In this document: in pieces, positions 2,730-64,000 of the stretch | Layout of the letters: each line of letters opens with the position of its first letter | Numbering within the stretch: the stretch's first letter is position 1 | Assembly: GCA_021372615.1 (NCBI GenBank) | Contig: JAJFUB010000121.1 | Location: 62,001-126,000 of the forward strand | DNA: 64,000 nucleotides | Reading direction: 5' to 3' | DNA from: a bacterium | GTDB taxonomy: Bacteria; Armatimonadota; Zipacnadia; Zipacnadales; UBA11051 | Translations under genes and position numbers: made by a program | The notes under the pieces: generated by a model | Told to the model about the DNA's origin: nothing | What the model saw: only the letters and a program-made list of their open reading frames with translations | Database searches by the model: none

Positions 2730-5438
2730 CTACTTCTCGTTGCGCAACTGGATGTTGTCCAGGTAGAACGCCGTCTTGTCCGTGGCCGAGCTGCTCCAGC
2801 CCACCCACGTGAGGTTCTTGAAGCCGGGGCCGTTGTCGAACTCGAGGGACTGCGGCTGACCGCCGGGCAGTGTCACCTGCAGACGCCACTTGCCGTCCAC
2901 GTCCGACCCGACCTTCGCCGACACCTCGACATGGAACCACTCACCCACCGGCAGGGCCAGCACGTCCTGGTCCGCGACCCGCAGCTTCCCGTCCCTGATC
3001 CAGAAGGACGGGCCGACGCGGTAGGGGTTCACGTCCCAACTGCGCCACTCGTTGTACATGACGACGCCGGGCGTGATCTGCATGTCGACGCTACAGATGG
3101 CGACGCCGCTCTGATAAGCCGGGTGGTAGGCGAAGTGGGGGTTGTACTCGTACTGCAGGCCAGGCGCGTCCACGATCTTGAGGCAGTGCTTGCTGCCCCC
3201 GGCGCCCCTCTCGTCGGTCACGCCGATGCTGTCGCCCTTGTTCTCGGTAATACAGGTGCGGGCATCAGCCGGCTTGGCGCCCACAGGGGCCATCTCGAAG
3301 TCGTCGCTCACCACCAGCGGCGGCGGGGGCGGGGGCTCGGGCGCGAACTGCACCTGGGCGTACTTGAAGCTCCGGGCCAGCGCGGCCCACTTCGGGTCGC
3401 CGTAGACGCCGGCCTTGGTATAGTCGAAGGGCTTGAAGCCCAGGTTCAGCGCCGGGGAAGCGGGGCTGAGCGTGAAGTCGTAGTGCTCGGCGTCCTTGAA
3501 CAGTGGGTCGGCCACGATCGAGCCCTGTTCCTGCCCCTGCTTCTGCCATTCGTCCAGCGTGAACTCGTGGAACATGACGGGCTGTTTGGAGGTGACCCAG
3601 TAGCAGTTGTTGCGGGTGATGAACTTCAGGTTGCGCCAGTTGCCCCGCAGCAGGTCGCCCTCCTTCCAGTACACGATGTTGTTCTCGAAGGTGAAGGAGA
3701 TGTGGTCCTCGACCCGCGAGCGCTGCAACTGGCCGTTCATGCTGAAGGCCAGGATGTTGTTGCGGACGGTGTTCTCCTCGCCGTAATGCTGATGGTAGGT
3801 CCCGGTCTTCGTGTTGTAGACCAGGTTGTTCTCCATCGTGATATGGCTGCTGCCCTCGTCGTTATACAGCCCCCAGCCACCCCCGCCATAGCGGTCGTAG
3901 GAGTAGACATCGTGGATGACGTTGTTGCTGACGGTCGTCCCGTCGGAGATGCCCAGGGTGTAGACGCCGCCCATGTCGCTGAGCACGCCCCAGCCGAGGT
4001 GGTGGATGTGGTTGAACTCGATCTTGTTGCGCTGGGCCAGCGACCGGTTGTAGCCCCAGCTCCACCCCGCCGAGACACCCGTGTAGAAGAAGTCGCTGAT
4101 GTCGTTGTGAGTGACGACATTGTCGGCGCTATGGCCGATCCACACGCCGTGCGCGCCGGCATGGAGGCGCCCGCCGCTGTGGATGATGCAGTTGTCCACC
4201 GTGACGTGGCCGGTGTGCGTCGTCGGGTCGGTCAGACTCACCCCCCAGCCCTCACCAATCTTCACGCCTCCCGCGCCCATGTCGTCGCAGTAGGTGCGCG
4301 TCACCCAACAGTCCTTGACGCCGTGGCGGAACCAGATGCTGTAGAGGCCGTGGTGCTTGATCTCGCAGTTGTCGAAGCTGATGTTGCGCGCGCCGTCCAC
4401 CATGACGACGGCGGGGACAGTCACCTCCGCCTGTCCGTCCGAATGGCCGCCGGGCGGAAGCAGGTACTGCCCGTGCTGGAAGCTGAGGCCCTCGAAGGCC
4501 ACGTTCTCGACGAGGAGTCCCAACTCCGGCTGGCCGGCGAGGCGGAGGAACTCCGGGCAGACCGGGGCGATGACCTCGGTCTTGGTCATGTCCTGGCCGG
4601 GGAGCGGCAGATAGGACAGCGTGCCATCGCGATCCAGGAACCACTCACCGGGCTGATCCAGCGCCGCCTTCACGTTCTCGATGACGTAGCGCATGTTGGG
4701 CCCCCAGTAGTTGAGGGTCCACGCGATGCGCCCGGTCAGGACAACGAGTTGGGTCTTGGGGTCGTAGGAAGCAATGCGCGAACGGGACGACTCCCACGAG
4801 TGGTAGGCGACGATGTTGACCTCGTGGAGTTGCTCGGGCGTGAGGCCCGCGAGGCACTGGAGGTCCTCGGGGCGGCCGGTGAAGGCGCGGTTGGAGAGGT
4901 CTGTCGGCTGCCCGGTCTGCGGGTCGGGGCCGCCCTTGGGGGCGGAGAGGATGTAGTGGTAGAACTCGTTGGGCGTACGTGCCCGTGTGGCGCGGCGGCC
5001 GTTGACCCAGAGCTGCTCGAAGGTCCACTTGCCGGCGGCGACGTCAGGCACATGGGCCGTCCACAGGCCGCCGGGGCCCGGCTTCCAGCCGGTGATCTTG
5101 CGCCCCCCGCTGAACACGGGCCTCGCGCCGGGAGCGGCCTCGTAGGTGACGCCGCCATCCTGCGGGCCGAGCACCAGGGGCTCGCCCAGGGCGTACGTGC
5201 CGCCCGCGATGATCACCTGCACCGGAGCCGTGAGTGGCCCGGCGGCCCGGAGCTTGCGGACGGCATCCCGCGCGCCCTGTAGCGAGGCCAGCGGGCCGTC
5301 CGTCTTCTGCTTGTTCGGGGCGGAGAGCTTGCCCGACCAGGCGTCATTGCCGTTAGGGGCGACATACAGGGTCGCCGCCGACGCAGGCCACACCAGCAGG
5401 AGTAGCGCGAGGGTGAACCACCAGGACCCAACAGACAT
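2730..5438 (-). CDS. Secreted right-handed beta-helix protein with C-terminal ConA-like domain
   Basis: 902 residues from the ATG at 5438, which has a GGAGTTGAGG stretch just upstream; an extension to 5522 would place a poor leader before the signal peptide. Order: signal peptide (about 1-22), [13 protein letters not shown] motif and N-terminal sandwich, a parallel beta-helix rich in Asn/Gly/His turns over roughly residues 330-620, a proline linker (PEPPPPPP) near residue 700, then about 200 residues resembling a laminin-G/concanavalin-A-like sandwich ending in [12 protein letters not shown]. Secreted polysaccharide-active proteins use this architecture. It is a paralogue of the gene truncated at the left edge. 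It diverges from the beta-helix gene starting at 5570 across a 131-bp gap. Enzymatic activity is not assignable. Confidence 0.85.
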
Positions 5439-13567: not shown

Positions 13568-13670
13568 GCGTGGGCGGGTGTGTCCTCGCACCCGCAACTG
13601 GTCGCGTGGCCGGGTGTGTCCTCACACCCGCAGCCCTCATTGGGCGCGTGAGGACACGCGCCCCCACGCG
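13568..13670. repeat. Three-copy GC-rich repeat, third copy inverted
   Basis: Two direct copies of GCGTGGGCGGGTGTGTCCTC followed by RCACCCGC (13568-13595 and 13604-13631) and one inverted copy (13642-13670) occupy the 179-bp gap between the alpha/alpha-barrel gene and the oxidoreductase gene. Each unit is itself a near-palindrome (GCGGGTGTG...CRCACCCGC). No coding signal is seen here. Confidence 0.7.
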
Positions 13671-13719: not shown

Positions 13720-16098
<2,379 letters not shown>

Positions 16099-16208
16099 CA
16101 GGTCAACTCCGCGCAAGGCATGGGTGCACACAACGCGCGGAGTGTTCACTGCGGGGAGAGCGAATACCTGTCTGGCGTGGGTGCGGACCTCCCGGACGCG
16201 CCGGCGCT

Positions 16209-16943
16209 CTACCACCAGGCGATGAGCAGCGCCAGCACCCCCATGGCGGTGAAGACCACGAGCAGGCTCAGTGAGCAGAGCCGTCGCCGGCCGGTCTCCA
16301 GCAGCGGCAGACGCACCCAGGCCAGGGCGGCGGCAAGCAGGCCCGCCCCGGCCAGCACCAGCGCGATGGCCCCCGGCCATGGTGTGATCCCGCGCGCGCC
16401 GACCCGGAAGGCGACGGTGGCGAGGTCGCCCAGCGCCAGGGCTGTCACAGCCGCCAGGCCCGCCGCCATGGGCGGCGATCCTACCAGCGCCGACGACAGC
16501 AACCCCAGCGTGTACGCGCTGGCCAGCAGCGCGACGAAGCAGTGCTGCACCTGACGCGCCTCGGCCAGCCCTAGCGGCAGGCTCCACACCTGCTGCGCCT
16601 GCGGGCCCACGATCGCCACGCAGCAGGCATACCCCAGCCCGATGGCCGCAGCGGCTGTGGCGGCTCCGGCCGCAGCCTTCAGGCCCCACACCGCCCCCCG
16701 GCGGAGCGGCCAGGAGGCCAGGAAGACCTGCTGGGCGCGGCTTTCGCGGGCCAGGGCCTGCGCGCCTCCGAACAGCGCCAGGGCGAAGCTGAGCACGATG
16801 TAGAACCACAGGCTGCTGCCCAGGTCCTGCCCGCGGAAGCGGTGCGCACGCACATCCAGCAGGGCCATCAGCACCATGGCCCCCCACGCCAGCAGCGCGG
16901 GCAGGAGCACTTCCCGCAGCTCTTTGACCAACAGGGCCCTCAC
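16209..16943 (-). CDS. ABC-2 type transporter permease
   Basis: 244 residues from the GTG at 16943, whose first bases overlap the TGA of the preceding gene (GTGA), so translation is probably coupled. The start VRALLVKELREVLLPALLAWG matches the cytosolic amphipathic helix that opens ABC-2 permeases. About six hydrophobic segments follow (near 15-35, 50-72, 90-115, 145-170, 180-200, 215-240). It presumably forms the membrane part of a transporter with the ATPase at 19048 and the larger permease-propeller protein. The substrate is unknown; the YtrA-type regulator suggests a cell-envelope stress or drug-related role. Confidence 0.8.
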   Translation of the reverse strand: MRALLVKELREVLLPALLAWGAMVLMALLDVRAHRFRGQDLGSSLWFYIVLSFALALFGGAQALARESRAQQVFLASWPLRRGAVWGLKAAAGAATAAAAIGLGYACCVAIVGPQAQQVWSLPLGLAEARQVQHCFVALLASAYTLGLLSSALVGSPPMAAGLAAVTALALGDLATVAFRVGARGITPWPGAIALVLAGAGLLAAALAWVRLPLLETGRRRLCSLSLLVVFTAMGVLALLIAWW

Positions 16944-19051: not shown

Positions 19052-19989
19052 GCGTCCCCACCTCGCGCGTACGCCACGAAGATGTCCTCCAGCGACAGAT
19101 TCTCGACATACGCCGACAGCGCCCCCGCGTCGTGTAGGCGCTGGAGGGTGTCCACGCCATAGTCGCTCACGATCCAGACTTGCTGCCGCCCTTCGTCCTG
19201 GCGGTGCAACGTGCCGGGGAGGGTGAAGCCGACGGCATCCTCACCCCCGGCCCCTCTCCCTCGCGCTTCGCGCTCCGGAGAGGGGGGGAACGGCTCGGGG
19301 AAGGTGGCGACGACCCGCTTCACCTTCGCCTGCAGGTCCTCCAGCGACGACTGCACCACCAGCCGCCCCTCGTGCAGGATGCCGATCCAGTCCGCCACGC
19401 GCTCGACATCCTCCAGGATGTGCGAGGAGAAGAAGACCGTCGTGCCGGTCTCCGCCAGCGCCGCCACGATGCTCTCCATGAACTCGCGCCGCACGAGCGC
19501 GTCCAGGCCCATCGTAGGGTCATCGAGGATCAGCAGCTTCGGCCGCGACGCCAGCGCCGCCATGAGCGCCGCCTTGCCCTGCATCCCCCGTGAGAGTTGC
19601 CCGAGCTTGCGGTCGGCCGGCAGCTCCAGCCGCACGCGCAACTGCTCAGCCAGCGCCCTGTCCCAGCGTGGATGCACCCCAGCGCCAAAGCCCATCAGCC
19701 CCTGCACGGTCATCCAGTCGGGCATCTGCACCCGCTCGGGCACGTACGACACGACCCGCTTCATCGCCACGTCCTGCTTGAACGGGTCGTACCCCATCAC
19801 ACGGATGCTGCCCTGGTCGGGGAGCAGCAGCCCCATGAGCATCTGGATCGTCGTCGTCTTCCCCGCGCCGTTGCGCCCCAGGTAGCCGTAGACGCTGCCC
19901 TCGGGCACGGCGAGGCTCACCTCGTCTACCGCCACCACGCGGCCAAAGCGCCGGCACAGGTTAGCGGTGCTGATCGCGGCTTCACTCAT
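19048..19989 (-). CDS. ABC transporter ATP-binding protein (YtrB-like)
   Basis: 313 residues from the ATG at 19989, with GGAGGG six bases upstream. Walker A is GRNGAGKT at residues 38-45, the signature is LSRGMQGK, Walker B is LLILDDPTMGLD and the switch His is in FFSSH. The position usually held by the catalytic Glu after the Walker B Asp is Asp here. Near residues 233-258 the sequence PPSPEREARGRGAGGEDA is encoded by a family-A palindromic element and interrupts the C-terminal region. The gene overlaps the regulator by eight bases upstream and the permease by four bases downstream, so the four genes form one translation-coupled unit. Confidence 0.92.
   Translation of the reverse strand: MSEAAISTANLCRRFGRVVAVDEVSLAVPEGSVYGYLGRNGAGKTTTIQMLMGLLLPDQGSIRVMGYDPFKQDVAMKRVVSYVPERVQMPDWMTVQGLMGFGAGVHPRWDRALAEQLRVRLELPADRKLGQLSRGMQGKAALMAALASRPKLLILDDPTMGLDALVRREFMESIVAALAETGTTVFFSSHILEDVERVADWIGILHEGRLVVQSSLEDLQAKVKRVVATFPEPFPPSPEREARGRGAGGEDAVGFTLPGTLHRQDEGRQQVWIVSDYGVDTLQRLHDAGALSAYVENLSLEDIFVAYARGGDA
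19220..19291. repeat. Family-A palindromic element inside the ABC ATPase gene
   Basis: CACCCCCGGCCCCTCTCCCT, an inner GCGCTTCGCGC hairpin and GGAGAGGGGG make a long stem. Relative to the copy at 15160-15203 it is read in the opposite orientation, yet remains open and in frame. Confidence 0.75.
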
Positions 19990-34592: not shown

Positions 34593-34602
34593 GCCGTTTG
34601 GA

Positions 34603-34677
34603 CCGCGGGCTTTCCAGCCCGCGGGGTCGTACGTGAGGACGGCAAAGGCGCGGGCTGGAAAGCCCGCGCTCCTACGG
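34603..34677. repeat. Two inverted copies of a palindromic element (family B)
   Basis: CCGCGGGCTTTCCAGCCCGC (34603-34622) and GCGCGGGCTGGAAAGCCCGC (34648-34667), the second followed by GCTCCTACGG. The pair abuts the stop codon of the solute-binding protein gene. The same core plus GCTCCTACGG is found in frame in the GH2 gene at 61619-61645. Confidence 0.7.
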
Positions 34678-61019: not shown

Positions 61020-63797
61020 CTACAGGCTGCAGGTAACCTCCGCCAGGTGCAGGAGTTGCTCGCGCGGCAGCTCCGTGGCCGGCGCCGCCGTCTGCCGGCT
61101 GACGCACTGCAACAGGTACCGGGCCTCGGGCCAGGACGGCTGCACGTCGAAGGCGGAGATGATGAGCCGCCCCGCCCCGCAGGCGCGCTCGACGAGATAG
61201 CCCAGCGGGTGCAGCACGGGGTAGCGGTGGATCGAGCGCACGATCGGGTCCTCGTCGTCCAGCCCGAACGGCTGCAGCATCAGCGGCGGCGCGCCGTCAA
61301 TGAGCCGGAAGAAGGGCAAGTCCGCCCAGCCCTCGTGGGGGAAACCGCCGAGCAGCGGGTGGTCGCGGACGATCGTCCCGTTCTGCCCGTCCTCATACGG
61401 CCCATAGTTCGCCGGCGGTGTCAAGAAGTGCCGCACGGTGCCGAACAGCGGGCGATGGGGCCGCACGAGGCCCTCGCTTGCGGCCAGCAGCACCCTCCCG
61501 CCGCCCTCCATGAAGGCCAGCAGCGCCTCGTCGAGCACCTCCGTCAGCACCAGGGCGTCCGGCGGGAGGTTCTCGGCGGTTACCGATGGCAGTTCCTGCC
61601 ACAGCTTCAGCCATGTCTGCCAGCTGGAAGCTGGCGCTCCTACGGCCCGGCCCCCGACGTAGCGAACGACGCCGGGGACGCTCTCCAGCCGGGGGAAGAG
61701 CCACAGCGGCCAGGCATTCGTGACGGTGCGTTCCCCATCGGTCAGGGCGGCGCTCAGTTCCAGGCGGCAGGGCTCCTGTACGTGCGGCAGTGTCGCAATG
61801 GCCTCGCCGGCCGGGCAGGTGGTGAACGGCCCATGGGCCCAGCGCGGCTCGCCCGTGGCGATCTCCCCCGCGTCCGAGCGCAGCGCCCACGTCAGCAGGG
61901 GCTCCGCGAACGGCGGGTGGGAGAAGTCCGAGACCGAGAGCCGGCAGCGGAACTCCCCTCCCGACGGCAGCACGCGGTTGTCGAACCCGAGGTCGGACAG
62001 GATGACCGTGTCGCCCATGGTCTGCTGCCACGTCGCCGCGTCAATGAGCTTGCGTTCGTAGAACTCGTCAATGACGCCCTGCGGCGACGGGTTGGCATCC
62101 ATCGCGTTGAAGTGAGAGACGCCGGCGAGGAACGGCCGGTCGCGGCGGAGCTGCTCCATCTTCGTCTTGGCTTCGAGGAACTGCAGGCGCTGGCTGCTTT
62201 GCGCGTACTCCTCCAGCAGGTCCTCCTGCCCGTGTGTGCGGGCAGCCGCACGGGCGATGTCGGCGGCGTAGTGGCGGATGGCCCCGCTGTACTTCCCCGA
62301 CAGGCGCACATCGGGGAACGAACTCCACCAGCGGAACTCGTGCTCGATGACCGGCTTGTCGGGCGGCTCCTGGCCCTCCGGCCAGTTGGTGTTGATGAAG
62401 TCCCCGGGCAAGTCCGCGTGGTAGCCGCCATCGGTCCAGATGACCAGCGCGTGCGGCTTGATGGCCTTCGTGTCGTCATGGCAGCGCCACGCCACGCGCG
62501 GGAAGAACGTGCTCGCACCCAGCTCGTTGCTCATGCAGTAGATGCAGGCCGAGGGGTGGTTCACGTCGCGCCGCACGACGAGGTCCCATTGGCGCTTGAG
62601 GGTCGGGTAGTGATCCGCCGTCGGTGCGGGCCAGGCGTAGATGTGCCACTGCGTGTTGCTGCCCCACGCGCCCAGCATCCCCATCTCGCTCTGGATGAGC
62701 AGCCCCGCCTCGTCGGCCGCGTCGAAGTACTCGGGCGCGTAGACGTACGACTGGCACCGCACCTGGTTGTAGCCGTAGTCGCGCAGGGCCTGCAGCTTGC
62801 ACCGCCAGCGGTCGCGGTCGGTGTCCGGGGAGCCGGTCTCGGGGCAACTGACGAAGTCGCCCGTCCCGCGGATGTAGTACGGCTCGTCGTTGACCAGGAA
62901 GTGGCGGCCCTCCCCGGCCAGCTTGACGAAGCCGGTGCGTTCCGTGAGGGCATCGAGGGTCTCGTCACCCTCCGCCAGTGCGGCGTCCACGCGGTAGAGC
63001 TGGGGTACATCGGGGCTCCACAGGCGCGGGCCGGGGACGGCAAGGTCGCCGGCGGCGAGACCGTCGCGGACAGGCAATTCGGCCGCGATGGGGGCGGCCG
63101 AGCCGTCGGCCGGAGCGACCGTCAGCCGCAACACGGCGTCCGTCCCGGCCTCCGGCGCCGTGGCCCACACGTGCAGTGTCTCCCGATCCACATCGGGCAG
63201 CAGGCGTAGTTCATGCACACGGGCCGCGCCGGTCGCCGTCAGCTCCACATCCCGGTACAGCCCCGACCAGTTGCCCTGCCAGTTGTAGGCCAAGCCGTAG
63301 AGGCGGTTGTGCTCGTGGATGCGCACCACGAGGTCGTTGTCGGCGGCCTCCCGCGTCCGCCCCGTGACCTCGAAGCCGAACGGGACGAAGGGGAGGTCAT
63401 TGCCGCCGAGGGGCTCGCCATTGAGCCACACCTCAGCGCTGGGGTGTGCGCCGCCGAAGTTGAGCCACAGGCGCCTGCCCTGCCAGTCGCCGGGCACGCG
63501 GAACGTGCGGGCATACCAGCCGGTGCCCTGGTAGGTGGCGCGGAAGACACGGCCCTGGAGGCGGAAGTCCCAGATCTCGTCCATACCGTCATGCCCGAAG
63601 CCTTGCCCCTGCCAGCAGCCGGGAACGGCAATGGGGTCGGCGATGGTGTCCGGGTGGCGGAACCAGCGGTCGCCCAGGCCGACGCCATCGGGATCGAGCC
63701 GGAAGCGCCACGAGCCGCTGAGGCTGTGGCGCAGCTCGCGAGGGTGGCAGAGGACGGGATTGACGCGGACGGGGCGGCTCACATCGATCTCTGGCAT
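61020..63797 (-). CDS. GH2 family glycosidase (beta-galactosidase/glucuronidase type)
   Basis: 925 residues from the ATG at 63797, with GGAGGAG seven bases upstream. Order: sugar-binding sandwich (about 25-170, SLSGSWRFRLDPDGVGL, WYARTFRVPGDW), immunoglobulin-like domain, TIM barrel (about 280-620) with acid/base Glu425 (CMSNELG) and nucleophile Glu487 (VIEHEFRW), then further sandwich and an additional C-terminal region with a glutamine-amidotransferase-like fold (VLLAASEGLVRPHRPLF). A family-B palindromic element (61619-61645) adds AVGAPASSWQ in frame in that region. No signal peptide. Would act on imported beta-galactosides or glucuronides. Confidence 0.9.
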   Translation of the reverse strand: MPEIDVSRPVRVNPVLCHPRELRHSLSGSWRFRLDPDGVGLGDRWFRHPDTIADPIAVPGCWQGQGFGHDGMDEIWDFRLQGRVFRATYQGTGWYARTFRVPGDWQGRRLWLNFGGAHPSAEVWLNGEPLGGNDLPFVPFGFEVTGRTREAADNDLVVRIHEHNRLYGLAYNWQGNWSGLYRDVELTATGAARVHELRLLPDVDRETLHVWATAPEAGTDAVLRLTVAPADGSAAPIAAELPVRDGLAAGDLAVPGPRLWSPDVPQLYRVDAALAEGDETLDALTERTGFVKLAGEGRHFLVNDEPYYIRGTGDFVSCPETGSPDTDRDRWRCKLQALRDYGYNQVRCQSYVYAPEYFDAADEAGLLIQSEMGMLGAWGSNTQWHIYAWPAPTADHYPTLKRQWDLVVRRDVNHPSACIYCMSNELGASTFFPRVAWRCHDDTKAIKPHALVIWTDGGYHADLPGDFINTNWPEGQEPPDKPVIEHEFRWWSSFPDVRLSGKYSGAIRHYAADIARAAARTHGQEDLLEEYAQSSQRLQFLEAKTKMEQLRRDRPFLAGVSHFNAMDANPSPQGVIDEFYERKLIDAATWQQTMGDTVILSDLGFDNRVLPSGGEFRCRLSVSDFSHPPFAEPLLTWALRSDAGEIATGEPRWAHGPFTTCPAGEAIATLPHVQEPCRLELSAALTDGERTVTNAWPLWLFPRLESVPGVVRYVGGRAVGAPASSWQTWLKLWQELPSVTAENLPPDALVLTEVLDEALLAFMEGGGRVLLAASEGLVRPHRPLFGTVRHFLTPPANYGPYEDGQNGTIVRDHPLLGGFPHEGWADLPFFRLIDGAPPLMLQPFGLDDEDPIVRSIHRYPVLHPLGYLVERACGAGRLIISAFDVQPSWPEARYLLQCVSRQTAAPATELPREQLLHLAEVTCSL
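61619..61645. repeat. Family-B palindromic element inside the GH2 gene
   Basis: GCCAGCTGGAAGCTGGC followed by GCTCCTACGG, the same arrangement as the intergenic copy at 34648-34677. Read on the minus strand as AVGAPASSWQ, with no frame change. Confidence 0.75.
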
Positions 63798-63855
63798 GGA
63801 GTGACTCCTCCCGGTGACCCGACGCGAGGGCACCGTCAGGCGATACTCACGGATA

Positions 63856-64000
63856 CTATCGGGGCAGCCCATTGGCTGCGAGCAGTATCGCCTTCTCAAC
63901 AATGCAGCCGAAATGGTCAAGTTCGCTTTGCTTGATCGTCTCGAGGACTTTGCCGTGCTGGACTGCATTGCGCGCTCTGCGCATCCGTTGCCAGGTGAAT
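63856..64000 (-). CDS. C-terminus of a HEPN-domain-type protein, 5' end beyond the window
   Basis: 48 codons are visible before the TAG at 63856-63858. They read RRARNAVQHGKVLETI then DHFGCIVEKAILLAANGLPR. The R-N-x-x-x-H block (RNAVQH) is the catalytic motif of RNase-type HEPN domains, and the end with a helix of small residues and Gly-Leu-Pro is common in their C-termini. The gene is on the same strand as, and 58 bp upstream of, the GH2 gene. Only a fragment is seen, so the full domain content is unknown. Confidence 0.6.
   Translation of the reverse strand, partial: FTWQRMRRARNAVQHGKVLETIKQSELDHFGCIVEKAILLAANGLPR

Follow-up and report, generated by a model that had tools for sequence, protein, structure and literature searches.

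The gene for a GH2-family glycoside hydrolase studied here contains a palindrome that forms part of its coding sequence. The gene lies in the window, by which we mean the whole stretch of 64,000 nucleotides analysed (C121:62001–126000 of the genome G000, which comprises 6.41 Mb in 171 contigs). The question raised by this locus is whether the palindrome arrived as a mobile element, and if so, what moved it and how it is kept within a gene. The two features are:

61020..63968, minus strand: GH2-family glycoside hydrolase gene, 982 aa, with GH2 domains in the ORF (Pfam)
61619..61645, minus strand: GTAG-tagged REP copy, in frame in the GH2 gene

The plus strand at 61619–61645 reads GCCAGCTGGAAGCTGGCGCTCCTACGG, and the minus strand reads CCGTAGGAGC followed by GCCAGCTTCCAGCTGGC. 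The tag GTAGGAGC occupies 61636–61643, and the stem-loop, with a 7-bp stem and a TCC loop, occupies 61619–61635. The original prediction that this element is read in frame in the GH2 gene holds for the sequence, the ORF, the domains and the translation AVGAPASSWQ, of which the nine residues VGAPASSWQ are encoded by the REP. The copy is a single REP with no head-to-head partner. Our preferred reading, to which we give a probability of roughly nine in ten, is that it belongs to a non-autonomous family of GTAG-tagged repetitive extragenic palindromes (REPs) moved by a REP-associated tyrosine transposase (RAYT) encoded on another contig, C34, and that copies inside genes are kept where they are in frame and tolerated.

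The REP family and its sites in the window

The repeat unit is about 25 bp long and consists of the tag GTAGGAGC, a 7-bp stem and the TCC loop. A genome-wide search for the tag plus core at up to two mismatches, as the original prediction had proposed, returned 87 copies in G000, 86 of them beyond the reported one, and none in 40 related genomes, of which 6 share its family and 34 its order. The 40 include no member of the same genus, and accordingly no near-identical empty site came to light. Shorter probes give the same kind of excess. The motif CGCTCCTACGG matches 73 times genome-wide versus 15 times for the reversed control, and a hairpin with a score of at least 5 directly precedes the tail in 60 of the 73 matches versus about 6 in shuffled flanks. 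Similarly, the degenerate core CCRGCWTCCWGCYGG is found 85 times versus 0 for its control.

The 87 copies share a paired structure. Two stem pairs co-vary while the other five are nearly invariant: pair 12–22 is G-C in 45 copies, A-T in 40 and A-C in 2, and at pair 15–19 there are 56 copies with T-A, 25 with A-T and six with other combinations. The tag is GTAGGAGC in 67 copies, GTAGGACC in 6, GTGGGAGC in 5 and something else in 9. Neighbours less than 150 bp apart are arranged head-to-head in 17 cases, in tandem in 5 and tail-to-tail in none; 40 of the 87 copies lie in such neighbour groups and 47 outside them. A palindrome of 20–40 bp in many dispersed copies (here 25 bp and 87 copies), a stem-loop with an unpaired GTAG at one of its ends, and a stem kept through complementary changes at two pairs are the features of a GTAG REP, and all three were found. 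Part of the family also has the build of a REPIN, in which two REPs are inverted head-to-head as one unit.

Three further sites in the window were compared with this family:

34650..34675, minus strand: intergenic REP of a sister subfamily, GTAGGAGC-GCGGGCTTTCCAGCCCGC, assigned by sequence comparison
34597..34622, plus strand: degenerate partner of the 34650 REP, with tag TTTGGACC, head-to-head with it
15673..15694, plus strand: REP-like copy of the GTAG-T-GCGGGCTTCCAGCCCGC subfamily with tag GCAG, inside the minus-strand ORF 13720–16887

It had been proposed that one and the same composite element occupies 61619–61645, an inverted pair at 34603–34677 and a site at 15678–15694. This was rejected in favour of three related GTAG-tagged subfamilies, namely GTAGGAGC-GCCAGCTTCCAGCTGGC at 61619, GTAGGAGC-GCGGGCTTTCCAGCCCGC at 34650 and GCAG-T-GCGGGCTTCCAGCCCGC at 15673, the last group being found 10 times exactly and 16 times at up to two mismatches in the 538 kb sampled. 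Neither 61619 nor the intergenic pair contains GGCTGGAAGCC, the core given for the composite. The pair itself stands, at 34597–34675, with the tail GCTCCTACGG on its right member and missing from its left. At the third site the exact core is present, at 15681, without the tail. The tail is itself the tag of a REP: read on the opposite strand, it gives the GTAG tag and linker. The ORF 13720–16887 has no Pfam match, so its label 'alpha/alpha-barrel' is without Pfam support.

Exact copies of GGCTGGAAGCC are also found in the window at 5080 and 26677. They were rejected as REPs, having neither tag nor extended stem, and look like chance matches. Palindromes of other types occur as well. A GTGG-tagged one (GTGGGGGCGCGTGTCCTCACGCGCCC) lies on the minus strand of the window at 13642–13667, and another tagged palindrome, GTGGGAGCGGTCACCGACCGC, occurs 35 times without mismatch in the sampled 538 kb, partly clustered on C21.

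A transposase gene between REP pairs

The original prediction placed the mobilising enzyme outside the window and suggested a search for a RAYT or an IS200/IS605-like gene. Seven Y1_Tnp (Pfam) matches are present in G000, none of them on the contig of the window. One, a protein of 194 aa on C34, matches NF047646, the NCBIfam model for REP-associated tyrosine transposases, at 81.3 bits against a cut-off of 80, a narrow pass by 1.3 bits. Residues 93–186 align with TnpA-REP 4er8, including the HUH motif (HVH) and a tyrosine, and the aligned tyrosine of 4er8 is the one that we take to be catalytic. To the left of the gene lies a head-to-head pair of GTAGGAGC REPs, and an identical pair begins on its right, so that cognate REPs are inverted on both flanks, as expected of a RAYT. 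The right pair is complete only across the break between C34 and C36; the end of C34 and the start of C36 carry the same sequence inside the REP pair and probably join. The family with its tag and paired structure, its linkage to a RAYT gene and its restriction to this lineage are thus matters of direct observation. The suggestion of a unit mobilised by a RAYT located elsewhere gains support from the 87 copies and from the position of the gene between identical pairs.

For TnpA-REP of E. coli, S. maltophilia and Marinomonas, recognition of tag and hairpin and cleavage at a dinucleotide are described in PMC8266576. By analogy, the C34 RAYT would cleave its cognate REP as single-stranded DNA. 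Being an HUH/tyrosine transposase, it most likely recognises the tag plus hairpin in single-stranded form, would then cleave nearby at a dinucleotide, and could transfer REPs, singly or as head-to-head pairs, to other sites. The copies that survive would be mostly intergenic, and genic ones would last only if the frame is kept and the linker is tolerant; GH2, the helicase, SecA and other proteins would thus carry REP-encoded peptides. From these elements we infer mobilisation by the C34 RAYT through a single-strand mechanism, translation of the peptides, and a near-neutral effect on the proteins.

Alternatively, the palindromes may have spread without the C34 RAYT, through another transposase (there are six other Y1_Tnp genes), gene conversion or replication slippage. 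The number of Y1_Tnp matches leaves room for this, transposition by the C34 gene is something that we infer, and tandem copies spaced 11 bp apart point to duplication in place. Nevertheless, it is the C34 gene that is bracketed by GTAGGAGC REPs, whereas the genes on C56, C40, C146 and C160 adjoin different palindromes, and slippage leaves the dispersed single copies in unrelated genes unexplained. We therefore regard spread without the C34 RAYT as improbable. The four genes just named (L034 on C56, L035 on C40, L039 on C146 and L038 on C160) are IS200-like or RAYT-like, with their own palindrome types nearby; for instance, GTAGCCGTGGGCGGCAGCCCACGG surrounds the IS200-like gene on C56.

The distribution of RAYT genes is wider than that of the family. 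RAYT homologues were found in 31 of the 40 relatives, none of which has the GTAGGAGC REP, and the presence of a RAYT alone does not therefore predict the REP family. The best named relative of the C34 RAYT comes from a Verrucomicrobiia MAG (44%). The flanks were read for four RAYT relatives (L212, L213, L214 and L094). In two of the four, at 58% and 55%, the palindromes on either side of the gene share the GGAGC linker and have stems of similar length with different letters; a number of those flanking L212 are imperfect. The repeats flanking L213 (53%) and L094 (44%) are of a different build. RAYT and REP thus appear to diverge together in part of this set, as judged from the flanking sequences. 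Such co-divergence was proposed by Nunvar et al. (PMC2817692).

Copies within genes

Comparison with homologues was used to examine the GH2 copy as an insertion. Seven homologues, 57–73% identical, can be aligned across the site, and the nine residues, at about residues 776–784 of the window protein, are missing from all seven; an alignment of GH2 homologues was a check that the original prediction had suggested. The spacing from a conserved Tyr to a conserved Trp is 14 residues in the window protein versus 5 in the seven homologues. The length difference of 27 bp corresponds to the tag, the hairpin and two bases. In an eighth homologue, L082, this whole stretch of the protein is missing, and two remote homologues give no information; these three stand outside the count of seven. 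Read from the aligned proteins, the comparison shows the GH2 REP to be an in-frame insertion.

Similar copies are found in other genes. Genes were called by a codon-usage gene finder rather than taken from annotation, so gene ends and intragenic counts are approximate. Of 116 sampled copies, 29, in 21 genes, are in frame in ORFs whose coding signal exceeds 3 on both sides, and for 22 of them it exceeds 8; the sample is no census, since it was built around type-A matches and holds too few copies of stem types B and C. Among the Pfam matches of the host genes are MutS, SecA, HypF, topoisomerase I and a DEAD-box helicase, as well as squalene-hopene cyclase domains, URO-D and GH31. Within these unrelated proteins the REP is read in different frames and on different strands. 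Four hosts besides GH2 were set against relatives. The DEAD-box helicase has 26 additional residues relative to 12 of 13 homologues, owing to a 71-bp REP pair, and SecA has 18 to 20 additional residues, also at a REP pair, relative to the three homologues alignable there. HypF was rejected as proof of insertion, the first copy adding 3 residues and the pair about 8 relative to homologues, and MutS was rejected because its linker length varies too much among homologues. The alignments show clean homologue support for insertion in GH2, the DEAD-box helicase and SecA.

The frames used within genes are uneven. Among the 24 type-A copies that lie within genes, 20 genes in all, antisense frame 1 (xQLEAGAPT) is used 10 times, sense frame 0 (VGAPASSxQ) 7 times and sense frame 1 (RRSAxFQPA) 6 times. 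No copy uses either of the remaining open antisense frames, so that three of the five open frames are in use. One copy, a GTGG variant, uses the sense frame that contains a TAG stop. Under equal use of the five open frames, leaving two empty among 23 has p of about 8e-5, or about 4e-4 when 20 genes are counted; these values allow for the choice of two frames, and paired copies are not independent. In a stricter test, 16 of the 87 type-A copies (18%) have a same-frame coding signal on both sides and none has signals in different frames or strands, versus 64% same-frame coding on both sides for random positions (n = 2000). Copies are thus rarer in genes than by chance and those present keep the frame, which is the mark of selection against disruption.

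A shared site of insertion was found in the helicase. In the orthologous DEAD-box helicases of two genera (L041:844-3768 on contig C62, and L148), the same loop just before the SAT motif is occupied, and in the nearest relative, G001, it holds an unrelated palindromic insertion (CTCACCCCCGGCCCCTCTCC...) as an in-frame inverted pair. The CTCACCCCCGGCCCCTCTCC repeat has 18 copies in G001 and 28 in G000 at up to two mismatches; a copy of it lies in the window at 19240–19259. A similar case is described for recB of two Xanthomonas species (Di Nocera 2013, PMC3733652).

These two patterns, the use of three of five open frames and the helicase loop filled by unrelated palindromes in two genera, could be taken to mean that intragenic copies are retained for useful peptides or hairpins, for example to tune the host protein or its mRNA. 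Yet removal of harmful insertions also yields a frame bias and a location in loops, and the under-representation of copies in genes speaks against a general benefit, which makes retention for usefulness quite unlikely. That the GH2 element is a palindrome arisen by chance in the coding sequence, or a motif of the protein family, rather than a mobile insertion has a negligible probability: the short motifs have no clear excess inside the window alone (7 matches each at up to one mismatch versus 3.0 and 6.1 expected), but the GH2 copy is one of 59 copies with zero mismatches to the 25-base consensus, and the other copies and the seven homologues described above speak for insertion. Insertion of a RAYT-mobilised REP followed by loss of disruptive copies remains our preferred reading. 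More speculatively, and less likely than not, the RAYT-linked family might provide conserved proteins with short loop peptides in a frame-selective way, with independent palindrome families entering the same loop in different genera.

Relation to known elements and significance

GTAG REPs, RAYTs, species-specific families, head-to-head dimers and intragenic REPs have been published (PMC3733652; PMC2817692), and intragenic REPs are reported in DNA repair genes and in genes of other conserved proteins (PMC3733652). The superfamily as described in PMC3733652 resembles the present family in having a tag 5′ of a short stem-loop, complementary stem subfamilies and a REP-flanked tyrosine transposase; head-to-head dimers prevail in most of its families, and several species have intragenic copies, with Opitutus terrae having the most among GTAG REPs. 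The likeness to the 24 families of that source is one of overall build. The RAYT/REPtron (PMC2817692; PMC8266576) is likewise described as a gene flanked by inverted REPs, with HUH and Tyr in the protein and a tag plus hairpin in the DNA. The C34 RAYT differs in having a whole identical head-to-head pair on each side. The present repeat is a new, lineage-specific, GTAG-tagged REP family of an already known type.

REPINs, reportedly defined by Bertels and Rainey in 2011, are head-to-head REP pairs dispersed as units. The pairs found here, such as that of the helicase, agree with this, unlike the 47 copies outside neighbour groups. Rickettsia palindromic elements (RPEs) are also described in frame in conserved proteins (Ogata 2000; PMC2229807, PMC3733652). 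Those of Ogata 2000 are 105–146 bp long, against about 25 bp for the repeat studied here, which has a GTAG tag and a RAYT linked to it. RPE-4 and RPE-6 are described as belonging to the CGTC repeats, which lack an associated transposase (PMC2229807; PMC3733652). The effect of the GTAG REP on proteins is like that of an RPE, but having neither the CGTC tag nor the long form, it is not one. We recognised no report of this REP family or of its frame bias in the open-licence literature, supplementary case tables aside.

A prediction made from the sequence only was confirmed by copies across the genome and a RAYT elsewhere in it. Our study adds a lineage-specific REP family together with its probable transposase. 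The in-frame copies in SecA, the DEAD-box helicase and GH2 are natural test cases for the effect of a 25-bp mobile element, and the frame bias is a concrete, testable pattern. If the supply of loop peptides proves true, proteins would repeatedly gain in-frame insertions from REPs and RAYTs.
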